The position numbers were made by a program, and so were the translations under genes. From Cardiobacterium hominis (GTDB lineage Bacteria; Pseudomonadota; Gammaproteobacteria; Cardiobacteriales; Cardiobacteriaceae), in NCBI RefSeq assembly GCF_900637305.1, contig NZ_LR134365.1, forward strand, positions 799,501-863,500: a stretch of 64,000 bases of DNA. The letters are read 5' to 3'. The notes beneath the pieces were generated by a model that had not been told where the DNA came from, searched no databases, and worked only from the letters and a program-made list of their open reading frames with translations. How positions within the stretch are numbered: position 1 is the first letter of the stretch; every line of letters begins with the position of its first letter. This document shows, in pieces, positions 1,353-49,477 of this stretch.

Positions 1353-4300
1353 ATGACTCATCACTCAGTAGTAAAATACCATTTTCGCCCGTTGATGATT
1401 GCTTCAGCGGTAGGATTTATATGCCAAAACACATTGGCACAATCAACTCCTTCTATTAACGATACCCCATTTGCCAATCGGCCTTTGCATCTGCAATCGG
1501 AATCTAAAACCACCTCAGCGGGAGGAGTGAAACCGAATGTAATGTTATTCTTGGATGATTCGGGAAGCATGCTTGAAAATGCTAATACAGGAAGCTATAG
1601 GATTCCGGATCTATGGAATACCTATTTGGGAAACTGTACTTATAATCAGAATAATTTGCTGATTAGCAGGAATCTATTGCCGGGCAATGGTCAGCAAACA
1701 AATCCTTCAATGGGTCGGTGTTTGTATTATTATAATGCTGACATAATATATTATCGAAACAAAGGGTTGCCACCAGGACCTAAAAGCTTTTTAAGACCGG
1801 CTGCTCAAGTTAGGATGGATGCTAACATTAATGCGATTAATGAAGTCTTAACTAAGACGGGTGATTCTGTAAATTGGCATTTGCTAACATTGTGGGGTTC
1901 TGAGTTTAGACACCTTAATGGTGGATTTTATAAATTTGACAATATTGGAACGGCCTCGGTTGGCTTAAGCGCTGAAAAAGCTCGTAAGTTAGTAAATAAT
2001 ATGTCTCCAATAGCTGGGACGCCCGCTACAGAAAGATATTTAAAAGCCGCTAATGTTCTAGACCATCAAATAAAATATCGCTGCCAGAAAAACTATATAG
2101 TTTTTATGTCAGATGGTGAGGCAAATGGGGGAGGATTCCCATGGCCAGGTGGGGTATATGGAACGCAGCCGCAGTGGTGGAGTCAGCATGATTCTAGCGG
2201 TCCCAATAGCGGAGACCCCGGGAAGGGAGTGTCAGTGTTTTCTAGCAAATTATATAACATGGATATGCGTGTTGGCGGAACGGATGTAGAAGGAGGGAGT
2301 TGGGACGATCCTAAATATCCTAAGCAAAATATTGAGACTATCACTATAGGATATGGCAATGGTCTAACTCCACAGGGACGAAACTATTTAAAAAATGCAG
2401 CGCAACCTTCAGAAGGCGCTTATTTTGCTAATAATGCGAGTGAGTTGGCAGATGCATTCCTTAAAGCGCTAGCTAAAGTTCAAACTCAAACACCAGCAGA
2501 AGCTAAAGAAACCAGTTCTATATCAACACCTTCAGTAACGGGGTCTAGTGTGGCCGATCTGGCGGCATTTTTGACTTTGGATACGGGAAAATGGAGTAGC
2601 GAGCTTAAATTTTATAAATTTTCGACCAGCGGGCCTACTGCTGGCGAATTATTGAGAGATGGGCAAAATAACTTAGCTCCCCCTGTTCCTGCTATTTATG
2701 CAGACAGACGAGTTTTGGTTAATAATGGAACGCAAAAATATTGGCTAAATGGGAGTGATGCAAAAAAAGAAGATTTTGCCATCTTGAGCGATAAAGAGTT
2801 TAAGGATGGGTTTGTTCCATGGTTAATGCGCTCTAATAAAACGGATGAGCAAATTGAATTGGATGTTGCAGGAGTAACGCCTCGTACAGTTAAGAAATAT
2901 CGTAAGCGCAGCGCTCAGGCAGACGATCCGTCACGTCAAATGGGAGACGTTCTTGATGCGCCGACTATTGCATTAGGAAAAGACCAAGATAATCGGCAGG
3001 AATTCGTGATTACCGCTGCTAATGATGGAATGTTATACGTATTCCAATCCACTAGAGATCCTGCTAGACCGTATGGCTTGAAGCTTAATTATCTTCCGGC
3101 TGGAATGCAGCGGGAAAGTGCCGATGATTCGATTACGGTCGGCAAGGCAATCCATGCGATAGCAGAAGAAGGATATGGCAAGGATAATGTCAATTATCCA
3201 CATTTGTATCTGCATAATGGAGGCCTTACTTGGGGATTAACAGCAAAAACAAATGGCTTAAACCAACAATATGTAGTTTTGGCTACTATGGGTCAAGGGG
3301 GACGAGGTGCGTATGGGTTAACGATAGGAGGAAAAAAGCGCTTAGATCGTAATGGAAATACGCCAGCGGGAATGAATGCGCCAGAGTCAGATTGGTTAGA
3401 TGAAGTTCCATTGTGGGAAACAAAAAAGGGAGACAAAAACACTTTAGGTTATACCGTAAGTAAAGGGACGTTAGCTCAAGTTGCGACACGCTGGAATAAC
3501 GGAGAGGCAGTAAGAAATGCTGGGGTTCATTATTACGCATTTGTAGCAAATGGCTATAAGGCAAAAAATGCAGCAGTATCTTATGAATCGCCGACACTAT
3601 ATATATATGACATGTTGGGTCAGGAATTTGGCACGGATACGACCAAAACTTCTGGAGATATTAGCAATGGCAACCAGCCAGGACAGTTTATTAAGAAGAT
3701 TTCAGTAGGAGGAGCGGAGGGTGCATTATCCAGCCCCACAGTAGTAGATGTCGATTTCGATGGCGTTATAGATATTGCGTACGCCGGTGACCAATTTGGG
3801 AATTTATATCGCTTTGACTTCCGAAGTGCTCCTTCTGGTTGGAAAGTAAACAAAATGTATACGGGAATTCCTACGCAACCAATTACTTCAGCGCCAGCTG
3901 TATATAGAAAAGATGGCAACAAATATGTTGTTATTTTTGGAACGGGATCTGATATTTTTGAGGATGATCGAAAAGACATGAATCAGCAAATGATTATGGG
4001 GATTCATGATGATTTGACGCAGGATCCTGTTAATTTGCTGCCAAATGATAGCCGTATTGCCCAACAGGCTTTTACGAGTGATAATAAAATTCGCAAAATT
4101 GAAGTAAACAATTTTGATCCTAAAACACATTCGGCGTGGCGTATCAACTTAGAACCAGGAGCCATTTCGACTAGCGACGGAAGGACTGTTGCTTCAGAAA
4201 AAGTGGTATCTAAGCCACAAATGTTGTTAAGTACAGCATATATCACGAGTCGCATATATGAATACAAAGAAACCGCGACCGCTTTACCTTCAGGCGCTAC

Positions 4301-19416: not shown

Positions 19417-19543
19417 GTCGTCTGTGAAAGATGATGCGACTGGAAATGGCAGCTTGATGCAGCCGTTTGTTATCGCATGATCTTTTATGAATCCCGATTT
19501 TCCGTGCCCTGCGCATGTTCTGACGTCCGAGGTTAATGCCGTT

Positions 19544-22500
19544 ATGACTTATACGTTTACCGAGAAAAAACGCATCCGCAAAAATTTCAGCAAACATCCC
19601 ACCGTGCTGGATACACCTTATTTGCTATCGATGCAGCTGGATTCTTATCGTGACTTTTTGCAGAAGGGTATTCCATCGGACAAACGCGCCGATATTGGCC
19701 TGCATGAGGCGTTTTCCTCCATTTTCCCGATTGAAAGCCATAATGGATTGGTCGAATTGCAATATGTCGGCTATGAATTGGGGCGACCTGAATTCGATGT
19801 ACGCGAATGTCAGTTACGTGGTGTGACCTATGCCTCGCCATTGCGGGTCCGGATGCGTCTTGCCATTTATGACAAGGGGAATCACGACAAGCGCAAGCTG
19901 AAACAAATTATTGAATCTGAACCGGTCTTTATGGGCGAGATGCCGTTGATGACCGATAACGGAACATTCGTGATTAACGGTACCGAGCGTGTCATTGTCT
20001 CCCAGCTGCACCGCTCTCCGGGGGTGTTTTTTGACCACGATAAAGGCGTTGGTCACAGTTCCGGCAAATTGTTGTTTTCTGCCCGCGTTATTCCCTATCG
20101 TGGCTCTTGGCTGGATTTTGAATTCGATGCCAAAGACTTGCTCTATTGCCGTATTGACCGCCGTCGTAAATTGCCGGTGACCGTGCTTTTGCACGCGCTT
20201 GGTTATACGGATGCGGAAATTCTCGGCGAGTTCTTTGAAACGCAAACTTTCAAAATCAGCAAAAACAAGCTGGAAATGAAATTCCAGCCAGCGCAATTCA
20301 AGGGTGAAGCGGTTGCTTTTGATATTATGGCCGATGGCGAAGTGTTGGTCGAAGCTGGCAAACGCATCACTTCCCGCCATGTGCGCCAATTGGAAGAAAA
20401 GAACGTTACCAGCCAAGTCGTGCCAATGGACTTTGTCGTTGGCAAGATTCTTGCCAAGGATTTAATTGACAAGGAAAGCGGCGAGTTGGTTTTACAGGCC
20501 AATACGGTTCTTACCGAAGAGCATATCGTGAAGTTTATTGAATTGGGCGTAAAAACGTTTGAAACGCTTTATGTCAATGAGCTGGACCGTGGCGCTTATA
20601 TTGCTGATACTTTGCGTGCTGATGAAAGCACTGATCAGGATAATGCGCGGGCGGAAATTTACCGCATGATGCGTCCGGGTGAACCGCCAACGAAAGATGC
20701 GGCAGATGGTCTTTTTGAAAATCTTTTTTTCAATGAAGAACGCTATGATCTTTCCCGCGTCGGGCGGATGAAATTCAATCGCCGCTTGGGGATTGAGGAA
20801 AAAGAAGGTAGCGGCGTGCTTTCCAGGGAAGATATTGTCCGCGTCCTGAAAACACTGATTGCCATTAAAGATGGTGACGGTACGGTTGATGATATTGACC
20901 ACCTCGGTAATCGCCGCATCCGTTGCGTCGGTGAAATGGCAGCCAATGCTTTCCGCATTGGTTTGGTGCGCCTCGAGCGCTCGATTAAAGAGCGCCTAAG
21001 CCAGGTTGAATCCGAACAATTGACGCCGAAAGATTTGATTAACCAAAAACCGGTTTCCGCCGCGATCAAAGAATTCTTCGGCTCTTCGCAGTTGTCGCAA
21101 TTTATGGATCAGAACAACCCGCTGTCGGAAGTCACTCACAAGCGCCGTATTTCCGCGCTCGGCCCGGGTGGCCTGACGCGCGAACGCGCGGGTTTTGAAG
21201 TGCGCGACGTACACCCGACGCATTATGGTCGTCTCTGCCCCATTGAAACGCCGGAAGGTCCGAACATCGGCTTGATCAACTCGCTTGCCGTTTATGCCAA
21301 AACCAATGAATACGGTTTCCTTGAAACGCCGTATCGGAAAGTCGTGGATGGCAAGGTGACGATGGAAACGGAATATCTTTCTGCAATTGAGGAATCCAAA
21401 TACGTTATCGCCCAGGCGAATGCCGCGCTTAATGAAGACGGCACTTTCCGCGACGATCTTGTCTCTGCCCGCTACGAAAATGAATTCATGCTGGCGCGTG
21501 CTGACCGTATTGATTATATGGACGTTTCGCCGAAGCAGATCGTCTCCGTCGCCGCTTCGCTTATTCCATTCTTGGAGCATGATGACGCTAACCGTGCGTT
21601 GATGGGCTCGAACATGCAGCGTCAGGCGGTGCCGACGTTGCGCGCCGATAAGCCCTTGGTCGGCACCGGTATGGAGCGGGTCGTTGCTAGCGATTCCGGC
21701 GTATTGGTGCGCGCCGAGCGTGGCGGGGTGATTGATCTCGTTGATTCCTCGCGTATTGTCGTCAAAGTCAATGATGATGAAGTGCAGCCGGGCGGTCTGG
21801 GGGTGGATATTTACAACCTCACCAAATACACCCGCTCCAACCAGAACACTTGTATCAACCAGAAGCCGCTGGTCAAGCCGGGCGATGTGGTCGCGCGTGG
21901 TGATGTACTCGCCGACGGCCCGTCCACCGATTTGGGCGAACTGGCGCTGGGGCAGAATATGCTCATCGCCTTCATGCCTTGGAACGGCTATAACTTCGAG
22001 GACTCCATCCTCATTTCCGAGCGTGTTGTCCAGGAAGACCGCTTTACCACCATTCACATCGAGGAGCTGACCTGCGTCGCGCGCGACACCAAACTCGGCT
22101 CGGAAGAAATCAGTAGCGATATTCCGAACGTCAAGGAAAGTGCGTTGGCGAAACTGGATGGCACCGGTATCGTTCATATCGGTGCGGAGGTGAAAGCGGG
22201 CGATATTCTCGTCGGTAAAGTTACACCGAAGGGCGAGCGCTCGCAGTCACCGGAAGAGAAACTCTTGCGTGCGATTTTTGGCGAGAAAGCCTCTGACGTC
22301 AAAGACAGCTCGCTGCGCGTGCCGACCGGTATGGACGGTACCGTGGTGGACGTGCGCGTTTACACCCGTGATGGTGTGGAAAAAGACGCGCGCGCGAAAG
22401 AAATCGAGGCGATGGAAATCGAGAGCATCGCCAAAAACATTAAAGACCAATTGCGCGTCTTTGAAAGCGATATTCACGAACGGGTGGCGCGATTGCTGCT

Positions 22501-23617
22501 CGGTCAGGCGGTCAAAAAGGCGCCGAAGCGTAAGTCTGGCGACTTGGTCGATCAGGCGCTGTTGAACGAACTCAAGCCGGAGCAGTGGTTTGATCTGCGC
22601 CTGCAAGAAGCTGACATCAACGAACAGCTCGATGGTATGCACCAGTTGCTGCTCGACAAGCGGCGCGAGTTGCAGGACTACTACGAGGAAAAAAAGGCCA
22701 AGTTTGCCCAAGGCGACGACCTTGCCCCGGGGGTGCTGAAAATGGTCAAAGTCTATCTTGCCGTCAAACGTCGCCTGCAACCGGGTGACAAAATGGCGGG
22801 TCGCCACGGGAACAAGGGTGTGGTGTCACGCATCGTTCCGGTGGAAGACATGCCATATATGGAAGATGGCACCCCGGTTGATATCTGCCTCAACCCGCTC
22901 GGTGTACCTTCGCGGATGAACATCGGCCAGGTGCTGGAAACGCACCTCGGTTGGGCGGCGCGTGGTATCGGGCTGCGCATCGGCGAAATGCTTGACCAGA
23001 ATGAAAAACCGCGCAAATTGCGGGATTATCTGAACGAAGTCTATAACCATGACAGCCAGCGCGAAGCGCTCGACAGTCTTGATGACGGTGATTTCGTCGC
23101 CCTTTGCCAAAATCTGCGTGCCGGGGTACCGATGGCGACGCCAGTCTTTGACGGGGCGAAAGAAGCCGAAGTGCAGCGCATGCTGGAGTTGGCCGGGCTG
23201 CCGAAGAGTGGTCAGACCCGCCTTTACGACGGCCGCACCGGCGAACCGTTCGACCGCGACGTCACCGTCGGCTACATGTACATGCTCAAGCTGAACCACT
23301 TGGTTGATGACAAAATGCACGCGCGCTCTACCGGGCCGTACTCGCTCGTCACCCAACAGCCGCTTGGTGGCCGTGCCCAGTTCGGCGGGCAGCGTTTCGG
23401 GGAGATGGAGGTGTGGGCGCTGGAAGCCTATGGCGCCGCTTACACCCTGCAGGAAATGCTGACGGTGAAATCGGACGACGTCGAAGGCCGCACCAAAATG
23501 TACAAAAACATTGTCGATGGCAACTTGCAGATCGATCCCGGCATGCCGGAGTCGTTCAACGTACTCACCAAGGAAATCAAGGCCCTCGCCATCAACATCG
23601 ATCTGGAACAGGAATAA
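19544..23617 (+). CDS. rpoB: DNA-directed RNA polymerase subunit beta
   Basis: A 1357-residue catalytic subunit. The start is set at 19544 so that the protein begins [15 protein letters not shown] as in relatives; the frame is open from 19487. The rifampicin-binding cluster reads [20 protein letters not shown] then [10 protein letters not shown], with the usual susceptible-type residues. Further blocks are [46 protein letters not shown] (active-site lysines) and the C-terminal [18 protein letters not shown]. Slightly longer than E. coli (1342). It lies 21 bp upstream of rpoC. Codon use is GC-rich, unlike the S10-spc genes further on. Confidence 0.97.
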
Positions 23618-45418: not shown

Positions 45419-45796
45419 ATGAGACATAAATTAGCGGGACGTAAATTTAACCGCACCAGCGCGCATCGCAAGGCGATGTTCAAGAATATGTCAGTTTCGT
45501 TGATTGAACATGAGCTGATTAAAACCACGTTGCCAAAAGCCAAGGATTTGCGCGGTATTATTGAGCCGATGATTACTCATGCAAAAAATCATGACGACGT
45601 AGCGGGACGCCGTTTGGCCTTCTCTCGTTTGCGTGATCGCAAAGCGGTGCAGAAGTTGTTTGCCGAGTTGGCTCCGCGCTATAAGGAGCGTCCGGGTGGT
45701 TATGTTCGCATTTTGAAGTGCGGTTATCGCCCTGGCGATCAGGCTCCCATGGCTTATGTTGAGCTGGTGGATCGTCCTGTTGCTGATGCAGAGTAA
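45419..45796 (+). CDS. rplQ: 50S ribosomal protein L17
   Basis: A 125-residue protein, the last gene of the super-cluster. It begins [20 protein letters not shown] and has [19 protein letters not shown] and [26 protein letters not shown] precedes the ATG. A strong terminator follows 22 bp after the stop. Confidence 0.96.
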
Positions 45797-45859: not shown

Positions 45860-46110
45860 TATGACCATCTTCCTAAAGCCTCATACTGTGTTGCGCCGCC
45901 TCGCGGTAGATGCTTACGGGGATTGCTAGACAAGCGCGACTGAAGTCGTACGTTTTTAGAGCGATACACCGAAAGCCTCCGATAAGGCGCATCGCTGAAG
46001 ACAGTACGCGGTTGTACGGCGCGGGTTTCCCATAAAAATAGCTTCACCATTTTTATGGGTGTCCGTTCAGACGGCGCAACACGGTATGAGGCTTTCGGGG
46101 GATGGCTATA
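45860..46110. repeat. 251-bp palindromic repeat with about 40-bp imperfect terminal inverted repeats
   Basis: The left arm (TATGACCATC..., then AAAGCCTCATACTGTGTTGC GCCG) and the right arm read in reverse complement (TATAGCCATC..., then AAAGCCTCATACCGTGTTGC GCCG) match over about 40 bases with few differences. Internal hairpins exist: a 10-bp perfect stem CCATAAAAAT/ATTTTTATGG, and GCGAT...ATCGC enclosing GCCT...AGGC. A minus-strand frame across it has no ribosome-binding site and is judged non-coding. A related 89-bp element lies at 48713. It resembles a MITE. Confidence 0.7.
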
Positions 46111-46350
46111 GATGATGGATGATGAAGGTTTCCTTTCTCCTCTTGGAGGATAAGAGTAGCTTTGTCATTCCTGTAAGGAAGCCCGGTCGGATGCTGCAAT
46201 GCCGTTCAGGGATTTGTGTGGATTGGTATAATGCCAGAACGCTTGATAATGGTATCCGCTACTATAGAGTTAGCGGTCATGGTAGTGTATTGATAATGGA
46301 AGTTTTGGTAGGAATTGAATTTGGCAGAAATTGAAATGGTAGGAGGAATA
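46111..46350. other. intergenic region before the SMI1-SUFU gene
   Basis: About 240 bp with no convincing gene. A TATAAT at about 46228-46233 could be a -10 for the downstream gene, but no good -35 was seen at proper spacing. A 71-codon frame here lacks a ribosome-binding site and family features. Confidence 0.4.
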
Positions 46351-47583
46351 ATGAATTTGGTGACGCGTTATTTGCAATGGCTCAAGGAGCATGGGTTGGA
46401 TACTTATGCTTATCCGCCATTAAGTGATGATGAAATTACTGCTTTTGAAACGGCGCAAGGTATAGCTTTGCCCGCTGCGCTGCGTGAACTGTATTTGCAT
46501 CTGGGCGGTCAGGAGAGCGAAATTTTGAATCAGATCCCCTATCGTTTGATTCCACTGGCTGAAATGGTTACGGTACAGGCGCATTTGCTGGCACAGGTGC
46601 AGCAGGCATTTGGCGAAAACTGGGCAGATTTTCGTTTGGATGGTTTTGAAGATGGCGATATGGTGCGAAATCTGCTTTTTCATGATAAGCGCTTGCCGAT
46701 TTTCCAGAACGACAACGACGATTATTATTGTCTGGATTTTGCACCGGCGGAAGCGGGCAGGGCAGGGCAGGTAATCGCCGTGCGTGGCGAGCCGGATGGT
46801 GAGAGCACGGATTTGCTCTTGATGTTTGATACTTTTGACGCCTGTCTGGAAGATATTATTGAGGATTTGGATAATGAAGCGATGCAGGATATGGAATCTT
46901 TTTTCGCGCATACTGGCGAAACTTTGCAGGCACTGGGCGAACATTTGGATGAATTGGATACAGCCGACTTCTATGATGCGGAAATCGGGGCGCATATTGA
47001 GAGGACTTTGGGTGCGATAGACGGGGTCTTGCATGATATGACGCCAGGGGCACTGCGGGTGCATGTCTATCATGTCGCGGCCGATGCGGGGCGTCCGTTT
47101 CAATTGTTAATTACCAGCGGCATGAGCAGTCTGCCGATGGCGTTTCCAGATGATGGATATGAAGCGCTGCGTCGTGCGGAATTGCTCGTGATGTTGCCAC
47201 CGGACTGGAATGTGCGGGCACAGGAAGACGTTAGCACTTGGCCGATGCAATGGCTGAAGATTCTGGCGCGGTTACCGCACGAGCAGCACACTTGGCTCGG
47301 TTACGGGCATACGATTACTTTTAGCGAGGACGCAACAGCGACGCTGCTGGGTACGCCGTTTAACAGCCTGCTGGTATTGCCGCCGCGCACATTGCCGGAA
47401 GACTTTGTGCGCCTGCAAACGGCAGATGGCGAGGTTATCAACTTTTATGCGCTGGTACCGCTTTATCCAGCGGAATTTGCACTCAAGGAACGTGATGGGC
47501 TGGAGGCGTTGCTGACGCGCTTCAATGCGAGCCATATCACGGAATGCGTGGATCTTTCACGTGTGGATTGCGCGGCATCGTAG
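46351..47583 (+). CDS. SMI1/KNR4-SUFU two-domain protein (possible immunity protein)
   Basis: A 410-residue cytosolic protein. The N-terminal domain (about 1-165) fits SMI1/KNR4: PPLSDDEITAFETAQGIALP then AALRELYLHLGGQ, and later LPIFQNDNDDYYCLDF. A linker rich in Asp/Glu helices follows (about 170-225). The C-terminal domain (about 230-400) fits suppressor-of-fused: PFQLLITSGMSSLPMAF, RRAELLVMLPPDW, WPMQWLKILARLPHEQHTWL then GYGHTITF, and NFYALVPLYPAEFALKERDG. Both domains are well known as immunity modules against polymorphic or contact-dependent toxins. The start is set by TAGGAGGA directly before the ATG. No toxin gene is adjacent, so the role is inferred. Confidence 0.8.
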   Translation: MNLVTRYLQWLKEHGLDTYAYPPLSDDEITAFETAQGIALPAALRELYLHLGGQESEILNQIPYRLIPLAEMVTVQAHLLAQVQQAFGENWADFRLDGFEDGDMVRNLLFHDKRLPIFQNDNDDYYCLDFAPAEAGRAGQVIAVRGEPDGESTDLLLMFDTFDACLEDIIEDLDNEAMQDMESFFAHTGETLQALGEHLDELDTADFYDAEIGAHIERTLGAIDGVLHDMTPGALRVHVYHVAADAGRPFQLLITSGMSSLPMAFPDDGYEALRRAELLVMLPPDWNVRAQEDVSTWPMQWLKILARLPHEQHTWLGYGHTITFSEDATATLLGTPFNSLLVLPPRTLPEDFVRLQTADGEVINFYALVPLYPAEFALKERDGLEALLTRFNASHITECVDLSRVDCAAS

Positions 47584-47587
47584 CATT

Positions 47588-48616
47588 ATGCCCTGCATCC
47601 AAACCCTGCCTGAAGGCTGTCTTGACATCATCGGCGACATTCACGGTCAGTATGCGGCGCTGCAAGCCCTGCTACGTCACCTCGGCTACGACGAGGACGG
47701 CACGCACCCGCAGGGGCGGCATCTCATCCTCCTCGGCGACCTGGTGGATCGCGGCGCGGATGTCCCCGCCGTGCTGGATTGGTACCAGCGCCTGCACGCG
47801 CGGGGCAGGGTGCAGACCGTACTCGGCAACCACGAAATTAACCTGCTGCTTAACGACGCCAAAGACGGCAGCGGCTGGTTTTTTGACCGTCGCGCCGCGC
47901 GCGATGCCCGCATCTATGCGCCGTGGCAGCGCTATCCCGCCGCACGGAAAGCCGCGCTTGTCGCCTTCCTCAACACACAGCCGCTGGTATTGCAGCGCGC
48001 CGACCTGCGCATCGTGCATGCGGCCTGGGATGCCGACGCTGTCGCCCATCTGCAAACGGCAGCGGCGGATGACATCATTAGCCTGCATTGCCATTGGGAG
48101 ACGGCGCTGGATGATGGCGCGCCCGCGCAACCGTGGTATCAGGACTGGCGCGCGGAAGAAGGCTTGGCGGGAGATTTGGGCGACCCGCAGCAGGCGCCCG
48201 CCTTCCGCCCCGCCACTGCCGCGCGCGACGTTTATTACAGCCGTGGCAATCCGGTGCGTGTTCTGACCTGCGGTGTGGAGGCTCCTTCCGCCGTGCCGTT
48301 CTATGCGGGCGGTCGCTGGCGTTTCGTCGAGCGCCAGGCGTGGTGGGATGACTATCGTGATGACACCGCCGTCGTCATCGGCCACTACTGGCGGCGTTGG
48401 CGCGGCGACACGAACCCGCTCTTTCCCTTCCCGCCCCATCACTGGCACGGCGCGCGTCGCAACGTCTTCTGCTGCGACTTCGCCGTCGGCGCACGCTGGC
48501 GCGACCGCGCCACAGGCACCGCGCCGGAGCAGTCGCCGTACCGCCTCGCCGCCCTGCGCTGGCCGGAGCGGACGCTGTTGTTTGACAACGGCGAAGCGGT
48601 AGCGACGGTGGCGTAA
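47588..48616 (+). CDS. metallophosphoesterase of the serine/threonine phosphatase-like family
   Basis: A 342-residue calcineurin-like phosphoesterase. Metal-site motifs are IIGDIHGQY, LLGDLVDRGADVPAVLDWYQ and TVLGNHEINLL, with a later HAAWD and GHYWRRW supplying His ligands. The middle and C-terminal parts, rich in Trp and Arg, are longer than in PrpA or ApaH, so substrate cannot be assigned (protein phosphatase or nucleotide hydrolase). Start at 47588, 4 bp after the SMI1-SUFU stop, so the two genes are probably co-transcribed, although codon use here is much more GC-rich. The open frame from 47525 lies inside the upstream gene. Confidence 0.82.
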   Translation: MPCIQTLPEGCLDIIGDIHGQYAALQALLRHLGYDEDGTHPQGRHLILLGDLVDRGADVPAVLDWYQRLHARGRVQTVLGNHEINLLLNDAKDGSGWFFDRRAARDARIYAPWQRYPAARKAALVAFLNTQPLVLQRADLRIVHAAWDADAVAHLQTAAADDIISLHCHWETALDDGAPAQPWYQDWRAEEGLAGDLGDPQQAPAFRPATAARDVYYSRGNPVRVLTCGVEAPSAVPFYAGGRWRFVERQAWWDDYRDDTAVVIGHYWRRWRGDTNPLFPFPPHHWHGARRNVFCCDFAVGARWRDRATGTAPEQSPYRLAALRWPERTLLFDNGEAVATVA

Positions 48617-48625
48617 TGGGTCATT

Positions 48626-48643
48626 CGCGCAAGATTTTGCGCG
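48626..48643 (+). repeat. short perfect hairpin after the phosphoesterase gene
   Basis: CGCGCAA, GATT, TTGCGCG: a 7-bp stem starting 10 bp after the stop, without a T-tract. It may act as an mRNA 3' stabiliser or a weak Rho-dependent end. Confidence 0.4.
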
Positions 48644-48712
48644 GTGTCCCGCGGATTTCCGGACTGTGTGGTTCTTTGTCAGGAACTATGCGGGTAATTG
48701 CTGTAGCGGGCT

Positions 48713-48801
48713 TATAGCGATCCTCCAAAAATCTCATACGGCGTTTCATTGCTGGGGGATGTAGGGGACGCCTTGTCTGAAATTTTATGTCGATGGCTAT
48801 A
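48713..48801. repeat. 89-bp Correia-like palindromic element
   Basis: It begins TATAGCGATCCTCCAAAAAT CTCATACGGCGT and ends ACGCCTTGTCTGAAATTTTA TGTCGATGGCTATA, so its ends form imperfect inverted repeats starting TATAGC-ATC. The left arm closely matches the termini of the 251-bp repeat at 45860 (TATAGC, ATCC, CC, AAA, CTCATAC in the same order). TATAG...CTATA ends and the inner ACGGCGTT / GCCTTGTC words recall neisserial Correia elements; that likeness is from memory. Confidence 0.65.
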
Positions 48802-48871: not shown

Positions 48872-49477
48872 TTATTCGCTAATCGCGCCGCGGCTTCCTT
48901 GGAATACGGCCAAGCCCTCGCTATTGGGGTATTTTACTTTTCCAGATATTTCTGCTGCACTGGGTCCCCATAAACGTGCGTCATATTGTGCTGTGCCAAA
49001 TTTTCCGTTGGCAATGCCGTTAACTTCTGCAAAGACATAATCAGCTTCATTATATTGGTCAAATTTTGCGGGCTGCAATGTAATCGTACCATATTGGCTT
49101 AATCCTTCTATTTTGCCCTGACCTTCTTTTTTACCGAAATCTACATCGTAAGCCAGTGTCCCTTTCTCTTCATTATTAAATGCAACACCGGTATAAGTAG
49201 CTTTTCCGCGAGTAGGCATATTATCTGCAGTTAGTGGTTCTACGCCATAAGCCATATTCAGGGAAACGCCTTTGGTGGTTTTTTGGATATAAGCACCGCT
49301 ATAGAATCCGTTATAGCTGCGAATTTTTACAGTATCGCGCATATTGGAGCCATCTGTGAATACGCTTTGACCCGTTGCATCGTACCAGCCTTGCGGCAAA
49401 CTACGAAAATCTGTCCTGAGTTCCTGGTTAGATAGTGAAAGAAGTTTGTGTCCATTCGCTATGGTATCCACGGACAA
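48872..49477 (-). CDS. factor-H-binding-protein-like surface lipoprotein, lacking its signal peptide
   Basis: 201 codons from a TTG. The C-terminal half resembles the neisserial fHbp beta-barrel in order and spacing: MPTRGKATYTGVAFNNEEKG, TLAYDVDFGKKEGQGKIEGL, then FAEVNGIANGKF and LWGPSAAEISGKVKY. The first ATG in frame is about residue 47. The start region abuts the terminator of the histidine-kinase gene upstream. No lipobox, signal peptide, ribosome-binding site or promoter is visible, so this is probably a 5'-truncated gene. The lipoprotein at 62038 shares MPT-G-ATY-G and GP-A-EI-G and keeps its lipobox. Expressed status is doubtful. Confidence 0.65.
   Translation of the reverse strand: MSVDTIANGHKLLSLSNQELRTDFRSLPQGWYDATGQSVFTDGSNMRDTVKIRSYNGFYSGAYIQKTTKGVSLNMAYGVEPLTADNMPTRGKATYTGVAFNNEEKGTLAYDVDFGKKEGQGKIEGLSQYGTITLQPAKFDQYNEADYVFAEVNGIANGKFGTAQYDARLWGPSAAEISGKVKYPNSEGLAVFQGSRGAISE

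Follow-up and report, generated by a model that had tools for sequence, protein, structure and literature searches.

The locus and its elements

The window, a 64,000-nt stretch of the Cardiobacterium hominis chromosome, carries two palindromic elements behind rplQ that bracket a pair of genes (Table 1). Pfam domains confirmed what the sequence-only reading had made of this pair, an SMI1/KNR4 + SUFU protein, possibly an immunity protein, followed by a metallophosphoesterase; both genes lie outside the mobile elements.

Table 1. Genes and palindromic elements discussed in the text (window coordinates)
Feature	Position	Strand	Remarks
rpoB	19487-23617		in the window
rplQ (ribosomal protein L17)	45419..45796	+	Pfam PF01196, E 3e-37; upstream of the first element
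Truncated, degenerate copy	45860..45956	+	97 bp; left end TATGACCATC..CTCATAC and core start
Complete 154-bp 'long' Correia-type element	45957..46110	-	ends TATAGCCATCC / TAGAGCGATACACC
Additional palindromic stretch in the long form	46021..46068	-	CCCATAAAAATGG...TTTTTATGGG; missing in 107-bp copies
SMI1/KNR4 + SUFU domain protein	46315..47583	+	PF09346, PF05076
Calcineurin-like phosphoesterase (metallophosphoesterase)	47588..48616	+	PF00149
89-bp short-type element	48713..48801	+	TATAGC...GCTATA ends both kept, apical core lost

The first palindrome has the inverted ends that had been read from it, as outer arms of 42 nt (45860-45901 and 46069-46110) that are 83% complementary. Its ends are indeed related to those of the second palindrome, but it is not the single 251-bp element that had been proposed: a truncated copy abuts a complete 154-bp element. 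The truncated copy matches the consensus at 86%, a match confined to consensus positions 6-49, and lacks both the apical core and the right end. The complete element is of the same type as two others in the window's genome, G000 (G000:301450-301603 and 207620-207774), and its extra palindromic stretch was delimited by comparing 107- with 154-bp copies and gonococcal 106-bp with 155-157-bp elements. The 89-bp element was found with both ends as first described; its inner words are GGCGTTT and GACGCCTTGTC, and a related short copy lies at G000:699426-699560. We built a covariance model from 63 sequences representing many genera, including three copies from the window's genome and none from the window itself; it matched both the long element (cmsearch, 33.7 bits, 45958-46111, minus strand) and the short one (26.4 bits, 48712-48800, plus strand). 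The RNA folding z-scores of these two elements are −4.3 and −2.8, respectively.

The sequence-only reading had also raised the possibility that the gene pair moves as a cassette, and a comparison of the gene positions with G002, the nearest relative that has the genes, gave no sign of this. The two genes are unlinked there: the phosphoesterase orthologue lies elsewhere, adjoining an unrelated gene (for a metallopeptidase-like protein, as predicted from its translation) and preceded, at a distance of about 10 bp, by one family element, the SMI1/SUFU match is weak and at a third location, and a different sequence with transposase genes stands behind rplQ. The bracketing elements themselves differ in type and lie on opposite strands, which also speaks against a cassette. 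Directly beside the short element, a gene at 48872-49477 (minus strand) encodes a factor H binding protein C-terminal domain (PF08794, E 2e-25).

Copy number and insertion at TA

Searches of the 2.67-Mb chromosome with the shared terminus and with the 107-bp consensus found about 50 separate copies, and because the termini recur at so many places, a chance resemblance between the two elements of the window is excluded. Fifteen copies are near full length, at 88-99% match to the consensus, and copies at unrelated sites are up to 99% identical to it. Most are 107 bp long and some 154 bp. Nearly all of the 29 copies inspected begin with TATAGC or end with GCTATA; they are mostly intergenic, in many cases following a stop codon by a few bases. 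At four loci in this genome (L044, L038, L031 and L010), IS30-type IS copies that are 97-98% identical and have ends GGCGAATT..CAAGTGCAACA lie 0-60 bp from an element, in some cases with a small palindrome, CATACA..TGTATG, between the two.

The mode of insertion was visible in two congeneric genomes of the same family as the window's genome, G009 and G010, which share about 89% identity. G009 lacks two of the elements present in G010 (L306:1731-1837 and 4043-4147), and its flanks there join at a single TA; at the second of these sites the right TA copy reads TT, a single mismatch. It is from these sites, rather than from the copies in the window, that precise insertion at TA is evident for the family. 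Intragenomic empty sites were sought in G000 and none was found.

Shared core and differing ends in neisserial Correia elements

Since 1986, descriptions of Correia elements have treated them as a feature of Neisseria. Our literature search, which was incomplete, found no report of them outside this genus, and an earlier IS630 proposal for them may exist. For comparison we took gonococcal Correia elements from N. gonorrhoeae NZ_CP119140.1. This record and NZ_CP119142.1 are labelled as plasmids, yet they measure 2.17 Mb, the former carries four 16S genes, and both look like chromosomes.

In general architecture the elements resemble Correia/CREE/NEMIS closely. Both have TATAG...CTATA ends, TA insertion and two size classes (PMC2649163, PMC5039591), and the 107- and 154-bp forms fall within the published ranges of 104-108 and 153-157 bp (PMC2649163). 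Both occur in tens to hundreds of copies and share an asymmetric core that has a TACGG side and a GACAA side: the sides CCGGTACGG and TCAGGACAA of the Correia core have their counterparts here in CTCATACGG and CTCAGACAA. Over the inner 60 bp, 47 of 61 alignment columns are identical to the gonococcal core (77%), with a score of 30; 2000 dinucleotide shuffles averaged 1.4 and did not exceed 13.5. Even the long forms are built alike. Those of the gonococcus (155-157 bp) have a palindromic insert of 47-50 bp between GCCT and CCGTAC, and the 154-bp form carries one of about 47 bp at the same point, although its sequence is unrelated to the gonococcal insert. A scan for the IHF consensus, allowing up to one mismatch, gave no match in either our long forms or the gonococcal ones.

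The ends are a different matter. The 26-bp Correia terminal repeat, TATAG[CT]GGATTAA..., was not found, TATAG alone being common to both. Beyond it, the similarity of the outer 24 bp to Correia ends is at chance level for the left end and marginal for the right one, whose score is equalled by 72 of 2000 shuffles. The hosts differ as well: in an rpoB tree, from which we disregarded a Chitinimonas row that was in the wrong frame, the window's genome and its order fall outside the betaproteobacterial rows. Thus the suggestion of a Correia-like MITE outside Neisseria holds as regards copies, sizes, core and TA insertion, with the likeness residing in the core and not in the ends.

The common size classes, TATAG ends and core might reflect a recent transfer of Correia elements from Neisseria by natural transformation, followed by spread. 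We regard this as very unlikely. Beyond TATAG the left end is no more than chance-similar to the neisserial one, the core identity is just 77%, and five genera of the window's family carry elements, with ends that differ among the lineages inspected. These lineage-specific ends largely refute the transfer.

Lineage-matched ends of resident IS630 elements

The mechanism that mobilises Correia elements has been described as undetermined (PMC2649163, PMC2229807), and one paper notes that an origin from IS630 is generally assumed for TATA-ended MITEs (PMC4853749). IS630-type transposases (PF13358) are present in the same genomes as the elements studied here. In the window's genome, a decayed IS630 of 923 bp (G000:967890-968812) starts with TATAGCAATCCTC, and its end, reverse-complemented so as to read inwards, is TATAGCGATACACC. 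These match the left (TATAGCAATCC) and right (TATAGCGATACACC) ends of the G000 MITE, respectively. This IS630, the only one in G000 with matching ends, is broken by stop codons.

Ends in common with a resident IS630 were also found in G002, where 12-13 of 17 positions after TATAG agree with the G002 MITE, and in G010 and G011. The similarity is modest in G380 and in the gonococcus (9.5 of 17 on average); the latter has six IS630 places, with ends TATAGTCAATTAA as compared with TATAGTGGATTAA in Correia. When MITE ends were assigned to IS630 ends in all combinations, pairing within the same lineage gave the highest total of 120 assignments for five lineages, and was likewise the best of 720 for six. 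The IS ends were chosen by inverted symmetry and inspection, guided in G011 by the MITE end; of the two results, that for five lineages is the cleaner because the sixth lineage was recognised with that guide. Two side observations concern the IS630 copies themselves: a gonococcal one (L345, 793-1850) is interrupted by a long Correia element, and many IS630 fragments lie at contig ends in G010.

We therefore have a concrete candidate for the mobiliser of a wide family, with ends matched lineage by lineage, and with it model hosts that are not pathogens. In our view both palindromes of the window are probably Correia-type MITEs whose TATAG ends are acted on by an IS630 transposase in trans, and in which the core has been conserved and the ends exchanged in the course of evolution. 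Most likely, an IS630-family transposase would recognise the terminal repeats of about 26 bp (TATAG...), mobilise the element and join it into a TA dinucleotide, which would become duplicated. The ends of the elements in each lineage would thereby follow those of its IS630. The inner part of about 60 bp, GGCGTTGC..GCCTCGCCGTAC-N-GTACTGTCTTCGGC..GCGCCTTGTC, is a palindromic core common to a much wider family, and may be retained since it aids transposition or the tolerance of the element.

There are parallels for such a pairing. The RUP element of Streptococcus pneumoniae is a 107-bp MITE with TA targets whose ends match those of the resident IS630-Spn1 (PMC2229807, PMC3049150); its host is Gram-positive, and the likeness rests on size, targets and ends. 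The TATAG-ended MITE of Candidatus Thiomargarita nelsonii, which its authors compared with both Correia and IS630, likewise has TATA ends and a large hairpin, but differs, by its published description, in a divergent internal sequence and in lying with a group I intron (PMC4853749).

Symmetry of the arms, probably kept at the DNA level

In the alignment of the helices, paired cells make up 88%, as against 69% in shuffles, and 313 cells are changed on both sides, as against 101. In the wider set, whose alignment was fitted to the model, these doubly changed cells number 325 versus 100. Sliding the partners abolishes the pairing signal. Part of the arm covariation is expected, because the lineages differ in their terminal repeats.

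Strong compensatory change in helices is what one would look for if the element were primarily a structured RNA or an mRNA 3' processing signal (an RNase III substrate, as reported for Neisseria) and mobile only secondarily, and the folding z-scores of full-length copies (−5 to −8), as well as the frequent position of elements immediately behind stop codons, agree with that. Nevertheless, we think such a primary role unlikely. G-U pairs are scarce in the arms, at about 17 of 638 paired cells (about 1% in the wider set), unlike in RNA helices and as in DNA inverted repeats, and this scarcity points to a symmetry that is kept at the level of DNA rather than as an RNA helix. The elements also show no preferred orientation towards neighbouring genes (34:29 in 63 cases), and precise TA insertions between related genomes fit mobile DNA better than an RNA signal. 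Rfam searches of the window and of 11 loci holding relatives, at gathering and relaxed thresholds, returned no relevant match.

A wider family with the same core

The specificity of the covariance model is supported by 200 kb of gonococcal DNA, in which every match of at least 28 bits was a Correia element. With this model the element was found in 8 of 12 genomes of the GTDB family of the window's genome. Copy numbers per genome reach 144 in G010, followed by 43 in G002, 37 in G000 by a stricter count, 24 in G011 and 22 in G009; at about 107 bp each, the copies in G010 make up about 1% of its 1.4 Mb. In a class-wide draw, 35 of 369 genomes had matches at E <= 0.001, the E-values of the model being rough. 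The more distant of these class-level matches have the GCGTTGC / GCGCCTTG loop in common but lack the GTAC apex. In several distant relatives (L261, L263, L265, L270, L272, L275 and L285), a mini-palindrome, CCCGAAGGG or CCCTTCGGG, stands at one outer end, and the opposite end has GCTCTGA or GCTGA.

We also searched a collection of named genomes with a core pattern chosen so that typical Neisseria copies drop out. Among the matches listed, nearly all hosts were betaproteobacteria (Janthinobacterium, Massilia, Undibacterium, Comamonas, Chitinimonas, Nitrosovibrio, Methylotenera, Ralstonia and others). Conservation in the 63-sequence alignment extends to the motifs GTTG and CGCCTTG, which lie outside the search pattern.

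Repeats of the GAGCGGCTAACAAAACC type enclose the core in Chitinimonas, Eleftheria and Massilia, and in the best copies they are flanked by TAA at either end. The same 20 bases precede an annotated IS5-family transposase in Cupriavidus taiwanensis STM 8555, where TAA is again found on both sides. This IS thus resembles the Burkholderiales relatives in its ends and its TAA duplication, and differs from them in having a transposase and no core; its ends are unlike those of the window's genome. A search with the Undibacterium end gave chance matches only. Since the core occurs with IS630-like ends in Neisseriaceae and in the window's family, and with IS5-like ends in Burkholderiales, it is tied to two unrelated kinds of end, through either an exchange of ends or repeated capture.

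These Burkholderiales copies bear on another candidate mobiliser, as IS1106, of the IS5 family, has been proposed for this role in Neisseria (PMC3898611). IS5-family transposases might then mobilise the element in the window's genome too, where transposases of IS4/IS5 type are present. We consider this extremely improbable: among the IS4/IS5-type loci examined in G000, G002, G010 and two genomes of the named collection, none has MITE ends on both sides, and IS copies with clear repeats carry other ends, for example AGAACGTGTTCAT.

An IS630 transposase remains the preferred mobiliser in the window's genome, and the two end kinds raise a broader question about the family. MITEs are normally viewed as deletion derivatives of one IS, and it would be unusual among them for the same core to switch between IS630-type and IS5-type ends. 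The chances seem to us evenly balanced that Correia elements represent one local branch within a superfamily spanning the proteobacteria, in which the core would be a transposase-independent module with an advantage of its own and the ends would be swapped (IS630 with TA, IS5 with TAA). If so, the family would be defined by its conserved core and not by its ends.

Two sets of core-pattern matches stand apart. JAFRMR010000001.1, from a MAG labelled Clostridia (L146, L198), has two matches on one contig; the one inspected lacks the flanking motifs, and the matches are possibly a coding repeat or contamination. In Janthinobacterium sp. LM6 (L138, 868-1053), two copies of the core element overlap in tandem, a possible internal duplication.
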